64,000 bases of DNA. It comes from Pseudovibrio sp. Ad37. GTDB taxonomy: Bacteria; Pseudomonadota; Alphaproteobacteria; Rhizobiales; Stappiaceae. Every line of letters starts with the position of its first letter. The first letter of the stretch is position 1. Shown here one piece after another: positions 14,887-62,169 of this stretch. The notes beneath the pieces were generated by a model, which saw only the letters and a list, made by a program, of their open reading frames with translations, did no database searches and was not told where the DNA came from. Location: positions 1 through 64,000 of the forward strand of contig NZ_LMCF01000096.1 in NCBI RefSeq assembly GCF_001623075.1, given 5' to 3'. The position numbers and the translations under genes are program-made.

Positions 14887-15816
14887 TTAGGCATCAACTT
14901 TAGGCAAAATCTTCTCCAATCTTGCCTCCGCTTGCTCAAGAAAAATCGCTGGAGCCAGCGCAAGCCCTCGTAATGATGAGGTAATGACGCAAAAATGGCC
15001 GCGTGTCAGCTGCTCATCAATAAGCGGCTTGAAAAGCAGCCGCTTACTCGCCAATTCTTCTTCCAACCCAATGACCGTCTGAAACGCCACCATTTCACCA
15101 GAGCGTACCAAGTGCTTCATAAACCGCAGAGAGTTCGCTTCCACACTACTTTGCCCACCAATGGAACTGTGAGAGAGCGCTACGTCCAGTCGCGCACGAA
15201 TAGAGATCCCTCGTGCAGGCATGGCAACCGGATACTCAAAGCATTGTGCCAGACCAAGTTGCTTTTCACCTGCCAGCGGATGTGTCGGAGCCATGATCGC
15301 CCCAATCTCCAACGCCTTCTTGTAGGTGATGTTCAGCGCATCGGTGTCTGGTGGTTCAAAGGTGAACCCCACATCCACTTCCGCTTTCTCAACGGCCTGC
15401 GCAACCCGCTCAGCCCCCATCACCTGCACATCCACATGAATACCGCTGTAGTCCTTGTGAAACTGCGCAATCACCTCAGGCAACAGCGCCTCAGTCACAC
15501 TTTCAACCGTTGCAATGGAAACCACACCACGGCGAAGACCTTTAAGCGCATCCAGCTCAGCACCGGTCGCCTCCAGATCGGATAGCGTCCGCCGAATATG
15601 GGCCAGCAGAATTTCCCCTGCAGAAGACAGACGGATCGTGCGGCCAACTCGCTCAAACAGCTCCATTCCCAACTGCTTTTCCAGTGTGAGAATTTGTCGG
15701 TTCACCGCAGAAGACGCCACATTGAGCTTGCGTGCTGCCGCCCGAATGGAGTTCTCTTCCGCAGCCGCTGCAAAATAGCGAAGCGCTGGGCCGTAAAGAT
15801 ACCGCGACCGATCCAT
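14887..15816 (-). CDS. LysR-family transcriptional regulator, likely for the purine block
   Basis: The 309-residue protein has an N-terminal winged helix-turn-helix (about residues 5-64, with NSIRAAARKLNVASSAVNRQ) and a LysR effector domain beginning at RRGVVSIATVESV. The ATG at 15816 has GGGAGG five bases upstream. It lies directly upstream of uraH in the same direction, separated by 116 bp. LysR proteins commonly control the adjacent catabolic genes and respond to a pathway intermediate; urate or xanthine would be logical ligands, but this is inference. A small hairpin (GATGCC/GGCATC) spans its stop codon. Confidence 0.88.
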   Translation of the reverse strand: MDRSRYLYGPALRYFAAAAEENSIRAAARKLNVASSAVNRQILTLEKQLGMELFERVGRTIRLSSAGEILLAHIRRTLSDLEATGAELDALKGLRRGVVSIATVESVTEALLPEVIAQFHKDYSGIHVDVQVMGAERVAQAVEKAEVDVGFTFEPPDTDALNITYKKALEIGAIMAPTHPLAGEKQLGLAQCFEYPVAMPARGISIRARLDVALSHSSIGGQSSVEANSLRFMKHLVRSGEMVAFQTVIGLEEELASKRLLFKPLIDEQLTRGHFCVITSSLRGLALAPAIFLEQAEARLEKILPKVDA

Positions 15817-15842
15817 CAATCCTCCCAATCCCTCAAACGTAT

Positions 15843-51848: not shown

Positions 51849-52838
51849 ATGACCATACTTGTAACAGGCGGCTGCGGATATATTGGAAGCCACATGACGT
51901 GGTGTCTTCACGACGCAGGAGAGGATTTTGTCGTCATAGACAACCTGTCCACGGGCTTCGATTGGGCCATCCCGCAGAGCACCAAGCTTTACGAAGGCGA
52001 AATCACAGACCTTGATCTGCTCCAGACAATCTTCCGCAACCACGACATCTCTGCGGTCATTCACTTCGCGGGCTCAATTATCGTCCCAGAATCCGTCTCT
52101 AACCCACTGAAATATTATGAGAATAACACAGCAGCTTCACGCACATTAATTGAAGCCTGTGTGAAGAATGGCATCAAGCATTTCATCTTCTCATCAACCG
52201 CAGCAGTTTATGGTGATCCAGAAGTTATTCCAGTTTCTGAAGACACCCCCTTAACTCCCTTAAGCCCCTACGGCACTTCAAAGTTAATGACAGAACTTAT
52301 GTTGCGCGACACGGCCGCCGCCCACGAGTTCAAATACACGGCTCTACGCTATTTTAATGTGGCAGGCGCTGATCCGGAAGGTCGCACTGGCCAGTCCACC
52401 AAGAATGCGACACATCTGATCAAAGTGGCCTGCGAAGCTGCCCTCGGTAAGCGTACCCATCTCGGCATTTTTGGCGATGATTTCGACACACCAGATGGGA
52501 CTGGAGTGCGCGATTACATCCACGTTTCCGACCTCGCAAGTGCACATTACCTTGCCCTAAAACGCCTGCGCGATGGCGGAGATAGCATCATCATGAACGC
52601 AGGCTACGGTGACGGCTACTCAGTCCTTCAGGTCATCGACGCTATGAAAGCCGTATCAGACGTTAATTTTGAGGTGAAAAAAGAGCCGCGCCGTGCTGGT
52701 GACTCTCCAAAAGTTGTCGCAGACAACTCCAGAATCATGAGCAATCTGGAATGGAAGCCACGCTTTGATGACCTGCCAACAATCGTAAAACATGCGCTGG
52801 ATTGGGAGAAAAAGCTCCAATTCAAAAACAGCCTTTAA
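51849..52838 (+). CDS. galE: UDP-glucose 4-epimerase
   Basis: The 329-residue enzyme interconverts UDP-glucose and UDP-galactose. It shows ILVTGGCGYIGSHMTWCL, the catalytic Ser in FIFSSTAAVYGDPE and the YxxxK pair in SPYGTSKLMTELM. The RYFNVAGADPEGRTGQ segment is diagnostic for GalE. The start is the ATG at 51849 with GGAG upstream; a TTG four codons earlier overlaps that site. It is separated from the galU cluster by 10 kb. Confidence 0.95.
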   Translation: MTILVTGGCGYIGSHMTWCLHDAGEDFVVIDNLSTGFDWAIPQSTKLYEGEITDLDLLQTIFRNHDISAVIHFAGSIIVPESVSNPLKYYENNTAASRTLIEACVKNGIKHFIFSSTAAVYGDPEVIPVSEDTPLTPLSPYGTSKLMTELMLRDTAAAHEFKYTALRYFNVAGADPEGRTGQSTKNATHLIKVACEAALGKRTHLGIFGDDFDTPDGTGVRDYIHVSDLASAHYLALKRLRDGGDSIIMNAGYGDGYSVLQVIDAMKAVSDVNFEVKKEPRRAGDSPKVVADNSRIMSNLEWKPRFDDLPTIVKHALDWEKKLQFKNSL

Positions 52839-56233: not shown

Positions 56234-56335
56234 CACCTGATTTCCAGCGCACATTCTCCTGCATTTTGAGGATCGCGCCCAGACCTGTTTTGCTTTTTAT
56301 ATGCGAACTCGGCATCCGTGATAAAGGACAGTTCC

Positions 56336-59269
56336 ATGGCGAAGTCGCCAACACATGACACACACAACACTTCCGCGCGCGCAGATCTTACGAAGCAGAT
56401 TACTGTACGCGGCGCTCGCGAACATAACTTGAAAAATGTGGATCTGGATCTTCCACGCGATAGCCTCATTGTTATGACTGGCCTGTCCGGCTCAGGCAAA
56501 TCTTCGCTTGCCTTCGATACCATTTATGCCGAGGGGCAGCGCCGCTACGTTGAAAGCCTGAGCGCTTACGCCCGCCAGTTCCTTGAAATGATGCAGAAAC
56601 CGGATGTGGATCAGATTGACGGCCTGTCACCTGCCATCTCCATTGAGCAGAAAACCACATCAAAAAACCCCCGCTCCACGGTCGGCACAGTCACCGAAAT
56701 CTATGACTACATGCGCCTTCTGTTCGCACGCGTGGGCATCCCATATTCCCCGGCAACAGGCCTTCCAATTGAAAGTCAGACCGTCTCCCAGATGGTCGAC
56801 CGCATTTTGATGCTGGAAGAAGGAACTCGCCTGTACTTGCTGGCCCCCATCGTGCGTGGCCGCAAAGGGGAATATAGAAAAGAACTCGCCGAGCTGATGA
56901 AGAAAGGCTTCCAGCGTGTAAAAGTTGACGGCGAATATTATGAAATCGCCGATGCACCTGCTCTGGATAAGAAATTCAAGCACGACATTGACGTTGTTGT
57001 TGACCGTATCGTCGTGCGTGAAGACATGGCTGGCCGCCTGGCAGATTCTCTGGAAACCGCACTGGAGCTGGCCGAAGGCCTCGCTACCGTTGAGTTTGCA
57101 GATCAGCAAGACGAAAAAGGCAAAGCAAAGCAGCTCATTTTCTCTGAAAAGTTCGCCTGCCCAGTCTCCGGTTTCACGATCCCGGAGATTGAACCGCGCC
57201 TGTTCTCGTTCAACAACCCCTTTGGTGCATGCCCGACCTGCGACGGGCTAGGAACAAAACTGGCCTTTGAGGCCGAACTCGTTGTACCGGACCAGACTCT
57301 GTCCCTAAGGGGCGGCGCAATCCTGCCGTGGTCAAAAACAGGCTCAACCTCCCCTTATTATACTCAAACGCTGGAAGCATTGGCCAAGCACCACAAACAG
57401 CCAATGACCAAAGCCTGGAAAGACCTCCCAGAAGACTTCCGCAATGCAGTGCTGTTTGGAACCGGCAATACAAAAGTACAGTTCGTTTACGACGATGGTA
57501 CCCGCTCTTACAAAACCGAAAAGCCATTTGAAGGCGTTGTCGGCAACATTGAGCGCCGCTGGCGTGAAACAGATTCTCAAATGGTGCGCGACGAGCTTTC
57601 ACGCTACCAGTCAGACCATGCCTGCGATGCCTGTAAAGGCTACCGCCTCAAACCTGAGGCCCTTTGCGTCAAAATTGCAGACCGCCACATCGGTGAGATC
57701 ACAGCTCTTTCCATCAAAACTGCACATGACTGGTTCTCCAGCATTGACGAAAAGCTCTCCGACAAACAGAACGAAATTGCGTACCGCATCCTTAAGGAAA
57801 TCCGTGAGCGCCTGAAGTTCCTCAACGATGTTGGCCTGGAATACCTCTCCATGGACCGCTCTTCTGGAACCCTGTCTGGCGGTGAAAGCCAGCGCATTCG
57901 TCTGGCCTCTCAGATTGGCTCCGGCCTGACTGGTGTTCTTTATGTTCTGGATGAGCCATCCATCGGCCTGCACCAGCGTGACAATGCCCGCCTTCTGGAA
58001 ACACTGAAGCACCTGCGCAATCTGGGCAACACCGTCATCGTGGTAGAACACGACGAAGACGCCGTTCTGACTGCGGATTACGTGGTGGATGTAGGCCCGG
58101 GCGCAGGTATCCATGGCGGACAGGTAGTTGCCAAAGGTACACCAGATGAAGTGATGGCTAATCCGGCCTCTCTCACTGGTAAGTATCTTTCCGGCAAAAT
58201 GAGCATCCCGCAACCAGATGAGCCGCGCAAGATTGACAAGAACCGTCAGATCAAGGTGTTCGGCGCACGCGGCAACAACCTCAAAGACGTGAATGCAACC
58301 ATTCCGCTTGGCACTTTCACATGTGTGACCGGTGTATCCGGTGGCGGTAAGTCAACATTCCTGATCGACACCGTCTACAAGGCAACGGCTCGTCGTCTCA
58401 ACGGTGCACGCGACAACCCCGCCCCGCATGACCGGATTGAAGGTCTGGAGCGCCTGGACAAAGTCATCGACATTGACCAATCCCCGATTGGCAGAACCCC
58501 GCGCTCCAACCCGGCAACCTACACAGGCGCGTTCACTCCAATCCGTGAGTGGTTTGCAGGCATGCCGGAAGCAAAAACACGCGGCTACGCGCCGGGTCGC
58601 TTCTCTTTCAACGTGAAAGGCGGACGCTGCGAAGCCTGTCAGGGTGACGGTGTTATCAAGATCGAGATGCACTTCCTACCTGATGTATATGTCACCTGTG
58701 ATGTGTGTAAGGGCAAGCGCTACAATCGCGAGACACTGGAAGTTCAGTTCAAGGGCAAATCCATTGCAGATGTACTGGACATGACCGTTGAAGAAGCAGC
58801 AAGCTTCTTCTCTGCCGTGCCATCCATCCGCGACAAGATGGAAACCCTCGCCCGCGTGGGCCTCGGCTACATCAAGGTCGGCCAACAAGCCACCACCTTG
58901 TCCGGCGGTGAAGCACAACGTGTGAAACTGGCAAAGGAACTTTCCAAACGCTCAACTGGCCGTACGCTCTATATTCTGGACGAACCAACAACCGGTCTCC
59001 ATTTCCACGATGTCGCCAAGCTGCTCGATGTCCTTCATGAGCTGGTCGATCAAGGCAACACAGTTCTCGTGATCGAACACAATCTGGAAGTGATCAGAAC
59101 CGCAGACTGGATCCTTGACCTTGGCCCTGAAGGGGGTGACGGCGGCGGAACCATCGTTGCAACCGGCCGTCCACAGGATGTGGCAGAGGTACCAGAGAGC
59201 TATACGGGACACTTCCTCAAGGAATTGTTTGAAAGGCGAAGCGCCAGCAAACTGGACGCCGCAGAATAA
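56336..59269 (+). CDS. uvrA: Excinuclease ABC subunit A
   Basis: The 977-residue ATPase finds DNA damage for nucleotide excision repair. It has two ABC modules: [20 protein letters not shown] at the first P-loop and [18 protein letters not shown] at the second, with signatures [18 protein letters not shown] and [15 protein letters not shown]. Zinc modules are CDACKGYRL in the first half and CEACQGDGV...[10 protein letters not shown] in the second. The insert that normally starts CxxC reads CPVSG, with one Cys gone, before CPTCDGLG. The ATG at 56336 (AGGA upstream) is chosen over a GTG at 56318. Confidence 0.97.
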
Positions 59270-59276
59270 AAACCAA

Positions 59277-59300
59277 ATGACCGGGCATTGTCCCGGTCAT
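59277..59300 (+). terminator. Terminator after uvrA
   Basis: ATGACCGGG and CCCGGTCAT form a 9-bp perfect stem around CATTGT, followed by eight T residues. Confidence 0.95.
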
Positions 59301-59633
59301 TTTTTTTGCAAAAACCGTCACCCCAACAGTCTCTTTCCGCGAGAACAACACAAAATACCAGTTGGCGCCGCTCTATTACAAAGCCTGCTCAAAGCCGGCG
59401 ACACATTGAAATATGATTAAGTTTTCAGCACCAACTGCCTAAAAACAGCACTCCCAGCCCCTCAGGTATGCAGATTTGTGCCGCAAATCACAAAATTACC
59501 GCACTGCACAATCGTTAATTTTAGCATTTATGTCGTTTTGAAGAATGGTAGCGCCATCATTTGCCATAATGCCATGCATTTTTTGCATATCGGACATGCG
59601 AAATGATGTGATGCACAATTGGAAAGTCTTTTG
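59301..59633. other. Intergenic region between uvrA terminator and RNA locus
   Basis: No gene is seen in these roughly 330 bases. There is a long-range inverted repeat CATCATTT/AAATGATG (59555-59562, 59601-59608) in the last third. TATAAA at 59634-59639 could be the -10 box of the following RNA locus; I cannot find a matching -35 box at 16-18 bp. Confidence 0.4.
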
Positions 59634-59645
59634 TATAAACCAACT

Positions 59646-59810
59646 CAAGGCCGCTGAGGAACTCCTCCCAATTAAACCTCGGCAGCCTAACATACAATCC
59701 TCAGGCAGCACCTCCTCCCAAGCTGCTTGATGGTTCTAAACAGAGATTTCCTCCCAGTTCTCTGTTTACTAGCTTCGCCCGTCGTTCCTCCCATCGACGG
59801 GCGTTAGCTG
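59646..59810 (+). ncRNA. Probable anti-Shine-Dalgarno small RNA with four TCCTCCCA stem-loops
   Basis: Four stem-loops follow one another on the plus strand, each with TCCTCCCA in the loop. Hairpin 1 is GCTGAGG/CCTCGGC (59653-59659, 59677-59683), hairpin 2 TCAGGCAGC/GCTGCTTGA (59701-59709, 59722-59730), hairpin 3 TAAACAGAGA/TCTCTGTTTA (59737-59746, 59759-59768), hairpin 4 CGCCCGTCG/CGACGGGCG (59776-59784, 59795-59803). The stems differ in sequence but all are paired, and only the loop is conserved, which points to selection on RNA structure. Alphaproteobacterial sRNAs with CCUCCUCCC loops (alpha-r14 and the Rhodobacter CcsR 'cuckoo' group) have this design and target ribosome-binding sites. 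Strand and ends are inferred. Confidence 0.7.
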
Positions 59811-59951
59811 TTTTAAGGGCCTATTTTCCTCAAAACTGCCCATCGTCCTCAGTAAAGCAATCACACAAAAGAAAAGCGCACCAGCCTCGCTGATACGCTC
59901 TCCAAATCATCACTGCTTTACGCACATCACTGCGCAACTCTCATCACCAGC

Positions 59952-60617
59952 TCACCTGCCTGATGGGTTTTCCAAATCAGCGCTGGTCATAGTCAGCCAC
60001 TTAGTCATATGCAGAATATCCGGCGGCTTGCCATTACTCAGGCGCCAGCTGTCTACCACCCATGGAATCTCAGTCGTTGTATCCACCACAACAGCTGAAG
60101 CATGCGGATACTTACCATCAAGGAAGAAACCACGAGAGGCAGGCCGCGCCGCACGGTGGTATTTAAGCCAACCCTGAGAACCCGCATAAACCAGCAGGCT
60201 TGTCGTGTTGGTCGCCTCGTCAATGCAATCCATCTGCCCTTTAACGTTGCCATTACCCATATCCAGCCCACCAATATCATTGGATGACCCAACCACAGGC
60301 CCAACACGCTTTTCTTGCCACTGCACCGCTTTGGAAATTGCAGCACGTTCTGCCTCAGGGCTTCGATGCCCTCGCTTCAAAATCGAGCGCAACCGCTGTT
60401 TGTCTTTCTGGCTAAACGTCACAGCCGTGCGATATTCGCAGCCGAAACCATGACAGATGTACAGTGTGTCACCTTTGTTTTCGATGCCACCCATCTGAGT
60501 ATACCAGGTACTTGGCTTTCTATTAATTTGGCTCATGCACGCAGTTAGCCCAATTGCGCCAACTGCAATCACGAAGGCCTGAGAAATTTTCTTCAGTTTC
60601 TTATTTGAAAAATACAT
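59952..60617 (-). CDS. Putative lipoprotein with a Cys-His-Asp pattern
   Basis: The 221-residue protein is not recognised as a named family. MYFSNKKLKKISQAFVIAVG leads to lipobox LTAC with Cys27 as lipidation site. The C-terminal half reads MDCIDEATNTTSLL, then HRAARP, YPHASAVVVDTT and IPWVVDSWRLSNG. Cys131, His172 and Asp189 occur in the order of a transglutaminase-like or papain-like triad, an inference from spacing only. The start at 60617 is preferred for the signal peptide; an ATG at 60647 adds ten residues. No clear ribosome-binding site is seen. It is divergent from trmFO. Confidence 0.7.
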   Translation of the reverse strand: MYFSNKKLKKISQAFVIAVGAIGLTACMSQINRKPSTWYTQMGGIENKGDTLYICHGFGCEYRTAVTFSQKDKQRLRSILKRGHRSPEAERAAISKAVQWQEKRVGPVVGSSNDIGGLDMGNGNVKGQMDCIDEATNTTSLLVYAGSQGWLKYHRAARPASRGFFLDGKYPHASAVVVDTTTEIPWVVDSWRLSNGKPPDILHMTKWLTMTSADLENPSGR

Positions 60618-60771
60618 GTGTTTTTGTGAATCACTTTGCACAACCATGGAAGATTGATGGCCTAAATGATTGAACTGAGCAAGTTCAGAGGCTAAGCAAT
60701 TCGCAAGCGATAAACACTTAGGCTTCATCAGACGCTTTGGCGCAACAGAAGCCCAGTCGATTGGATAGGAA

Positions 60772-62169
60772 ATGACGAAGCAGCCCATACACGTGGTTGG
60801 CGGCGGCCTGGCAGGCTCCGAAGCAGCATGGCAGATCGCAGAAAAAGGCCTGAAGGTCGTTCTGCACGAAATGCGCCCAACACGTGAGACCGATGCACAC
60901 AAAACAGATGGCCTTGCAGAACTGGTGTGCTCCAACTCATTCCGTTCTGACGATGCTGAAAACAACGCTGTTGGCCTGCTTCATGCTGAGCTACGCGCTG
61001 CCGGCTCCCTGATCATGAGATGCGCAGATGCCAACAAAGTGCCTGCTGGCGGCGCACTGGCCGTTGACCGTGATGGATTTTCCCAAGCTGTACAAGCTGC
61101 GCTGGAAAGCCACGAGAACATAGAGATCCTCCGTGAAGAAGTGACTGAGATCCCATCCGCAGAAATCGGTCAGGTCATTCTTGCAACCGGCCCGCTCACA
61201 TCTCCAGCTCTTTCAGAGCAGATCCTGCAAGCAACCGGCGAAGACTCCCTCGCCTTTTTTGATGCTATTGCACCGATCATCCACACTGAAACCATCAATA
61301 TGAACAAAGCATGGTTTCAGTCTCGCTACGACAAAGTCGGCCCGGGCGGTACAGGTAAAGATTACATCAACTGCCCAATGGATAAAGAGCAATACGAAGC
61401 CTTTATCGATGCACTGATTGGCGGCGAAAAGACCTCCTTCAAAGAATGGGAAGAAAACACGCCATACTTTGATGGCTGCCTGCCAATTGAAGTGATGGCA
61501 GAACGTGGCCGCGAGACCCTGCGCCACGGCCCGATGAAACCAATGGGCCTGACCAATGCCCATCAGCCAGACATCAAGGCCTACGCTGTGGTGCAGCTGC
61601 GTCAGGACAATGCCCTTGGCACGCTTTACAACATGGTTGGTTTTCAGACCAAACTGAAGTACGGCGCACAGGCAGAAATTCTCCGCATGATCCCGGGCCT
61701 GGAAGAAGCTCAGTTTGCCCGCCTCGGCGGCCTGCACCGCAACACCTTCCTCAATTCACCGCGTCTTCTCGATGATCAAATGCGCCTCAAAGCTCTGCCA
61801 TACGTGCGTTTTGCAGGTCAGATCACCGGCTGTGAAGGTTATGTGGAATCCACCGCCGTTGGATGTTTGACAGGTTTATTCGCAGCTCATCAGGCACTTG
61901 GAACCGACATTGCACCTCCGCCAATCACAACCGCATGCGGTGCAATCGTCAACCATATCACGGGTGGTCACATTGATCGCGAAGATGGTTCCGGCTCGCG
62001 TTCCTTCCAGCCAATGAACATCAACTTCGGCCTTCTGCCTCCACTGGACGAAATGCCGAAGCATCCGGAAGGCAAGCGCCTGCGCGGCAAAGAAAAGACC
62101 CGCCTTAAAAAGCAGGTTATGGCCAAGCGGGGTCTGGATGACTTTAAAGCATGGGTCGCGAACGTCTAA
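60772..62169 (+). CDS. trmFO: Folate-dependent tRNA (uracil-54-C5) methyltransferase TrmFO
   Basis: The 465-residue flavoprotein methylates U54 of tRNA using methylenetetrahydrofolate. It begins [20 protein letters not shown] (FAD site) and has [37 protein letters not shown], the [20 protein letters not shown] segment, and [15 protein letters not shown] near the end. It is full length. A terminator follows, facing the NDUFAF6-like gene. Confidence 0.95.

Follow-up and report, generated by a model that had tools for sequence, protein, structure and literature searches.

The window, that is, the whole stretch of DNA analysed, comprises 64,000 nucleotides of a contig of Pseudovibrio sp. Ad37, a member of the Stappiaceae. 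Near its end, an open reading frame on the plus strand (56318-59269), which we take from its sequence to be uvrA, is followed by a terminator-like site (59275-59302, terminator scan). Downstream of this site lie a conserved promoter block, a probable -10 element, and an array of four hairpins that ends in a short U tract. The C-terminal part of UvrA was present in 27 of the 28 relatives searched.

Hairpin array downstream of uvrA

The 8-mer TCCTCCCA is found on the plus strand at 59663, 59713, 59749, and 59786, and the window holds one other copy, at 15820. At least five copies were reached in 2 of 100 shuffles of the window, so the evidence lies in the clustering and folding of the motif and not in its count. 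In 300 copies of the window generated by a first-order Markov model, no strand had four TCCTCC within 131 nt; the maximum was three. A motif-plus-hairpin detector was applied to both strands of the rest of the window in 244 overlapping stretches of 1500 nt and returned no array of at least two. Throughout the 5.9 Mb genome, three TCCTCCCA copies with gaps of 24-50 are unique to the uvrA array (two overlapping matches).

The minimum-energy fold of 59640-59840 consists of four hairpins, each exposing the motif unpaired in its loop. At -72.2 kcal/mol, the fold is far more stable than the shuffled mean of -42.9 (z -7.69), and none of 200 shuffles was as good. Hairpin 1 (H1) spans 59648-59688 and carries the loop AACTCCTCCCAATTAAA, hairpin 2 (H2) spans 59696-59735 with the loop ACCTCCTCCCAA, hairpin 3 (H3) spans 59737-59768 with the loop TTTCCTCCCAGT, and hairpin 4 (H4) spans 59771-59809 with the loop TTCCTCCCAT, all on the plus strand. 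The loops measure 17, 12, 12, and 10 nt, respectively, and all four stems are dissimilar. The initial annotation had described four tandem hairpins of unrelated stem sequence that present a single exposed loop, and this description stands, positions included. H4 is the probable stem of an intrinsic terminator. It is followed by GTTTT (59810-59814, plus strand), a short U tract at which transcription would end; a terminator scan limited to loops of 3-8 did not list the site after H4.

The covariance model of ar14 (Rfam RF02344) matches H2-H4 with 54.3 bits (E 4e-9 in 601 bases, 9.3e-9 in the genome), short of the gathering score of 58.8 bits. At the gathering threshold, Rfam reports only a tRNA in the window, and the ar14 match appears in E-value mode. 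H2, H3, and H4 align to the first, second, and third hairpins of the model, H1 precedes the match and lies outside it, and the U tract is short. At E <= 0.001, ar14 was matched in 85 of 87 family genomes (61 of 87 above the gathering score) and in none of 14 control genomes; at E <= 10, 9 of the 14 control genomes yield matches as well. Within the genus, the best ar14 match stays under the gathering score in all 16 genomes. Rejected at less than half of their cut-offs were sX13 (24.6 of 50 bits) and anti-hemB (16 of 49.5), which have C-rich loops in common with the array, and ctRNA_p42d (20.3 of 50), a match on the minus strand outside it.

Cuckoo RNAs are defined, in PMC4504443 and PMC3927594, by two to four adjacent hairpins with a common loop motif and unconserved stem sequence. 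The latter source describes members with two, three, and four hairpins (SmelC201, SmelA075, and SmelA099). The uvrA array has four adjacent hairpins, a constant loop motif, and changing stems. It belongs to the cuckoo family and is a relative of ar14, and by Rfam's own rule it is no ar14 member. Its RNA is one more cuckoo RNA, and four loops are already a known form. The kinship to alpha-r14 and CcsR that the initial annotation proposed, together with its view of a structured RNA whose loops could block ribosome-binding sites, is in line with the ar14 match, the fold, and the covariation reported below. It had also called four loops unusual, a view which the published range of two to four (PMC4504443), the four-hairpin members in PMC3927594, and the folding of SmelA099 into four hairpins contradict.

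Further arrays are present in the same genome. L003:1425-1640 (G000:C218, ~52079-52294) contains three motif hairpins, of which the last is a long terminator-like stem, and one or two extra motif hairpins are visible upstream by eye. This array was missed by the triple-TCCTCCCA pattern because one of its gaps is 22. Its flanking open reading frames were read by eye as an aminopeptidase and PrmA, and Pseudovibrio axinellae (L158) shows nearly the same motif spacing. A shorter array at L002:1501-1590 (G000:C17, 13237-13326) has two hairpins with the loops CCTCCCCTCCCA and TCCTCCCA and a T run. The genome thus holds two-, three-, and four-hairpin forms.

Conservation of loops and turnover of stems

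The array was located downstream of uvrA in 15 of 16 Pseudovibrio genomes, including the one studied here (G000). Fourteen of them carry four hairpins, and the uvrA locus of G019 (L089) carries five motif hairpins, one above the range given in PMC4504443. G016 (L065) is free of an array downstream of uvrA, and no ar14 match was found in its genome at E <= 0.001. The stems differ widely among the genus genomes and the loops are kept, apart from a few that are worn in G025, G026, and G020. The H1 stems are very different in G018, G019, G020, G026, and G027.

Across 10 close orthologues (nine distinct), 96.7% of stem cells pair, compared with 24-48% in slid controls. Four pairs (nine cells) show changes on both sides, one of them in H1 and three in H2; the shuffles averaged 1.2 such pairs, and none of 500 was as high. 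Further pair types in the 10-sequence alignment were not above shuffles (375 of 500 as high). H3 is nearly invariant in close relatives, and 13 of the 14 pairs of H4 never vary, which is neither for nor against pairing. A consensus of 14 sequences computed with RNAalifold kept H1, part of H2, and H4, and for 15 of 30 pairs at least one sequence has both sides altered. H3 was not kept in this consensus, in which divergent stems are poorly aligned. The five-hairpin G019 was omitted from the 10- and 14-sequence alignments. Compensatory change is thus seen in H1 and H2, and H3 and H4, which hardly vary, are neutral. The constancy of the loop holds in 15 genomes, in which the loops remain the same while the stems turn over. 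Together with the covariation and the z-score of the fold, this turnover leaves practically no room for the reading as chance inverted repeats, or repeats acting at the DNA level, that have no function as RNA.

In the other genera, 26 of 71 genomes were examined in detail, namely those with uvrA and an array on one fetched stretch. The first array contains three hairpins in 23 of these loci, four in G012, six in G028, and nine in G039. The position next to uvrA, which had initially been judged unusual, is therefore usual for the family, with the array there in all 26 other-genus loci examined. The uvrA loci of G002, G003, and G073 are without an array within 1.5 kb; ar14 matches lie ~1.4-1.9 kb downstream of uvrA in G002 and G003 and ~690 kb off in G073, so this place is not universal in the family. 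Among the matches listed, a DUF1127 match stands just before an ar14 match in G002 and G073.

Longer arrays were observed in several relatives. Four three-hairpin units stand in tandem in L092 (G001:C5, ~60526-61239), adding up to 12 motifs behind one DUF1127 gene. Nine hairpins follow in a row in G039, and tandem units comprise ten in G072 and nine in G040. In Amylibacter cionae (L157:7275-7794, minus strand), twelve motifs within ~510 nt are arranged as six pairs, resembling six two-hairpin units, and a regular-expression search over 8 kb found no DUF1127 motif on the array strand. A triple-motif scan over species genomes, which is not a survey, listed matches that include unrelated phyla; among the matches listed, Pseudovibrio exalbescens M63 has the motif spacing of G027, a genome of the genus.

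Promoter block and the DUF1127 gene

The promoter block begins with the TGCA-N6-GCAT box TGCATTTTTTGCAT (59575-59588, plus strand), which has the form of the LsrB box described at the promoter of NfeR1. Its second conserved half, GCATATCGGACATGC (59585-59599, plus strand), overlaps TGCATTTTTTGCAT. The box form occurs four times on the plus strand of the window, so that its conservation is what counts. Among the array-bearing loci of the genus, 12 of 15 have the exact form, each time 88 nt ahead of the first TCCTCC, compared with 0.07 of 15 in shuffled stretches; in the other genera, 14 of 26 loci have it upstream of DUF1127. Written as the pattern GCA-N5/6-G-N-[CT][AG]TGC, the second half precedes DUF1127 in all 26 other-genus loci and the array in 13 of 16 genus loci; mononucleotide shuffling of these stretches yielded 0.28 of 26 and 0.09 of 15. 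In G026 and G020, GACATGC was seen by eye near the place of the block.

A probable -10 element, TATAAA (59634-59639, plus strand, reading GTATAAA), would place the transcription start near 59645-59648. Counted from the start of GCAT...CATGC, TATAA or TATAT follows at 49 nt in all 13 genus loci with the pattern. In the other genera, a -10-like element follows at 48-49 nt in 23 of 26 loci, at 44 in G005 and G006, and nowhere in G047. The accepted -10 forms were picked after the sequences were seen. The block is 110-145 nt from the DUF1127 start in 25 of 26 loci (173 in G058, which has a late chosen start) and 78 nt from the first TCCTCC in 13 genus loci. From its sequence, one and the same promoter appears to precede DUF1127 in the other genera and the array in Pseudovibrio. 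Counted from the start implied by the -10, the centre of the LsrB-type box is ~64-66 nt upstream, so that a sequence match to TGCA-N6-GCAT is found near -66 and directly before the array, as is characteristic of NfeR1.

A sigma-70 consensus scan gave no site at the array promoter. The NfeR1 -35 element CTTAGAC is absent from 59550-59650, and with it the NfeR1 signature CTTAGAC-N17-CTATAT. Of the VtlR site forms published in PMC7486931 and PMC12595884, GCAT-N3-TG-N3-T is absent from the promoter stretch and CAATGCAGCCATGCA from the plus strand of the window. PMC12595884 also describes regulation of three DUF1127 genes and AbcR2 by VtlR in Brucella melitensis. The AbcR/suhB matches were tried as a route to the LsrB gene and discarded, as the longer adjoining open reading frames did not read as LysR proteins; no LsrB/VtlR gene was found beside these matches in the genome. 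The missing VtlR site forms, the missing NfeR1 -35, and the failure to find the regulator gene by this route argue against a simple transfer of the facts known for LsrB and VtlR.

A small open reading frame stands directly before the array in all 26 other-genus loci, with its stop 22-37 nt before the first TCCTCC, and all eight such small proteins that were submitted matched Pfam DUF1127. In Pseudovibrio, a motif search found DUF1127 downstream of uvrA in none of 16 loci. A hidden Markov model built from the relatives and run in six frames over these 16 loci scored 1.5 bits at best, compared with 84-96 bits in three control loci. The CcsR/CIN1 arrangement, in which a DUF1127 gene is co-transcribed before the array, is thus not present at the uvrA array. 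DUF1127 genes as such occur in all 87 family genomes, with 1-2 in each Pseudovibrio genome and 3-10 elsewhere; in the genus, their position was checked around uvrA and, for G000, elsewhere as well, and the one gene of G000 is situated away from the uvrA locus with no array within ~1.5 kb. The initial remark that the array is not beside a DUF1127 gene therefore holds for Pseudovibrio. It does not hold as an oddity of the array, given that the stand-alone NfeR1 is known and that DUF1127 directly precedes the array in all 26 other-genus loci. Accounts of what DUF1127 proteins do differ, with RNA binding described in Rhodobacter and protein partners in Salmonella and Agrobacterium (PMC12501420).

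RNase E could process a CcsR-type precursor into RNAs of one or two hairpins, each acting on its own, in the manner of CcsR1-4 of Rhodobacter sphaeroides, which are cut from one transcript according to PMC8625941 and PMC10253847. The latter source involves the DUF1127 protein CcaF1 in CcsR maturation, whereas no such gene stands at the Pseudovibrio locus, and the single distant DUF1127 gene of G000, though it could still act in trans, is without a nearby array. Several processed forms of SmelA075 (PMC3927594) and the tandem arrays of 6 to 12 hairpins in relatives would suit such cutting, against which PMC10746234 describes NfeR1 as a transcript of 123 nt. We consider processing into singly acting units, which the initial annotation had also named, conceivable but rather unlikely.

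As to the origin of this arrangement, it is fairly probable that the leader and the DUF1127 part were lost in the Pseudovibrio ancestor with the promoter spacing kept, and that the array grew from three to four hairpins (once to five). Of the possible histories, we hold loss of the coding part to be the most likely. In a UvrA tree, the genus forms one group (94/99) and the deep order in the family is not resolved, so that the direction of the DUF1127 change is likely and not proven. The open deep branching would also accommodate a stand-alone array that is ancestral in the family, with DUF1127 inserted later in the other genera, and NfeR1 of Rhizobiaceae, with its own transcription unit and TGCA-N6-GCAT box (PMC10746234), provides a parallel. 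Such an insertion would have had to hit the interval from start site to array in an ancestor shared by the other genera. Moreover, DUF1127 was found behind uvrA in 2 of 18 sampled genomes from other families of the order, one of which (L281) has a weak ar14 match (32 bits, E 0.0048), and we regard a later insertion as unlikely. In the part of the open-access literature searched, we found no report of DUF1127 loss before such an array, nor of a Pseudovibrio sRNA; the papers defining cuckoo RNAs, CcsR, and CcaF1 lie outside this coverage and may describe it.

The DUF1127-linked type (CcsR) and the stand-alone type (alpha-r14/NfeR1) are found in one genomic place and behind one common promoter block, and thus look like two states of one gene. 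If the loss of DUF1127 in Pseudovibrio is true, the genus would serve as a natural experiment that asks whether the RNA depends on the DUF1127 protein. With the RNA and its promoter kept and the neighbouring protein gene gone, the role of DUF1127 becomes open to a direct test.

Candidate targets and comparison with known systems

The complement of the full loop, TGGGAGGA, is positioned 3-9 nt before an ATG 45 times in the genome, compared with 7 times for the reversed pattern; the 45 matches include four copies of a single repeat and count one site twice. Thirty of them were fetched, and 17 distinct open reading frames of at least 50 amino acids were readable. Pfam assigned six of these 17 to solute-binding receptors and one to a nucleoside transporter. 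The control AAGGAGAA precedes an ATG 30 times (12 reversed), and reading of 19 control open reading frames revealed no solute-binding receptor, although an ABC-permease-like and an ABC-exporter-like protein were recognized by eye. Ten of the 19, hand-picked and scanned with Pfam over at most 150 amino acids each, contained no receptor and one EamA transporter. The comparison is small, and the control holds other transport proteins. Strong Shine-Dalgarno sequences generally show some complementarity to the array loops. Before the start of the gene preceding ntrC, taken as ntrB by its position, GAGGAGT could pair, as many ribosome sites would, and this pairing is therefore weak evidence. A separate observation concerns TGGGAGGATTGATG (window 15814-15827, minus strand), which lies at the start of a LysR-family gene, holds the only motif copy of the window outside the array, and is a candidate target. 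Transporter-receptor mRNAs are the leading candidate targets, as predictions from sequence.

The most likely function of the RNA, as this analysis suggests, is that of a trans-acting repressor masking Shine-Dalgarno sites. We postulate a stand-alone, trans-acting sRNA of the alpha-r14/cuckoo type, with an LsrB-type promoter, four loops that block Shine-Dalgarno sites, and the DUF1127 gene missing, and assign this reading a probability of roughly 0.8. The sRNA would be ~165-170 nt long, reaching from near 59647 to near 59814 by our estimate of both ends. The conserved promoter block with its LsrB-type box would control it. The loops ACTCCTCCC, CCTCCTCCC, TTTCCTCCC, and TTCCTCCC (in DNA letters) would pair with purine-rich Shine-Dalgarno sequences and so block translation initiation, as has been shown for NfeR1. 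The stems may serve as scaffolds whose sequence is free to change while pairing holds, as seen for H1 and H2. With the DUF1127 gene missing, the promoter would drive the array directly, and the array would carry one hairpin more than usual.

Several identical sites on one RNA are, on general reasoning, also what a sponge, the form mentioned in the initial annotation, requires, and the loops might mainly bind partners other than start sites, for example purine-rich regulatory RNAs. The same loops in NfeR1 silence mRNAs directly, an effect lost on loop mutation (PMC10746234), which makes a sponge or decoy improbable. Under the preferred reading as a repressor, the variable hairpin number leads to a testable question, namely whether more loops give stronger or broader repression.

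CcsR RNAs presumably have two hairpins each, and we take RS0680a to be one of them. PMC3927594 describes RS0680a with two hairpins. CcsR1-4 of Rhodobacter sphaeroides, encoded with the DUF1127 protein CcaF1, have anti-Shine-Dalgarno loops like those of the Pseudovibrio array. The order of DUF1127 and then array in the other genera is that of CcsR, whereas the Pseudovibrio locus is without the DUF1127 gene. The CcsR RNAs differ further in being processed from a DUF1127 mRNA (PMC8625941, PMC10253847).

SmelA099, on pSymA of Sinorhizobium meliloti, resembles the uvrA array in having four hairpins in succession, whose stems are unrelated and whose loops read CCTCCTCCC. Its last hairpin is followed by a T run. 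Like the uvrA array, it shows no DUF1127 motif on the array strand in the 1.8 kb read. In contrast to the Pseudovibrio array, where the loops end in CCCA, those of SmelA099 end in CCCG; it is located on a megaplasmid, and the 200 nt preceding its first motif contain no exact TGCA-N6-GCAT.

NfeR1 (SmelC397), the founding alpha-r14 RNA, forms its own transcription unit with the LsrB box TGCA-N6-GCAT at -72 to -60. Its three loops are redundant, and direct mRNA silencing is lost when they are mutated; these data come from PMC10746234, which together with PMC7143759 reports silencing of ntrB and transporter mRNAs. Induction by nitrogen stress is a further trait of NfeR1. NfeR1 differs from the uvrA array in its three hairpins, its length of 123 nt, and its -35 CTTAGAC, which the Pseudovibrio promoter is missing. 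As for the NtrC site of NfeR1, Pseudovibrio has a TGC-N11-GCA spacing at 59562, which does not coincide with the position published for NtrC and which, judged by eye, some close relatives lack. Like the uvrA array, NfeR1 has its own promoter, one loop motif in every hairpin, and an LsrB box equally far from the start.
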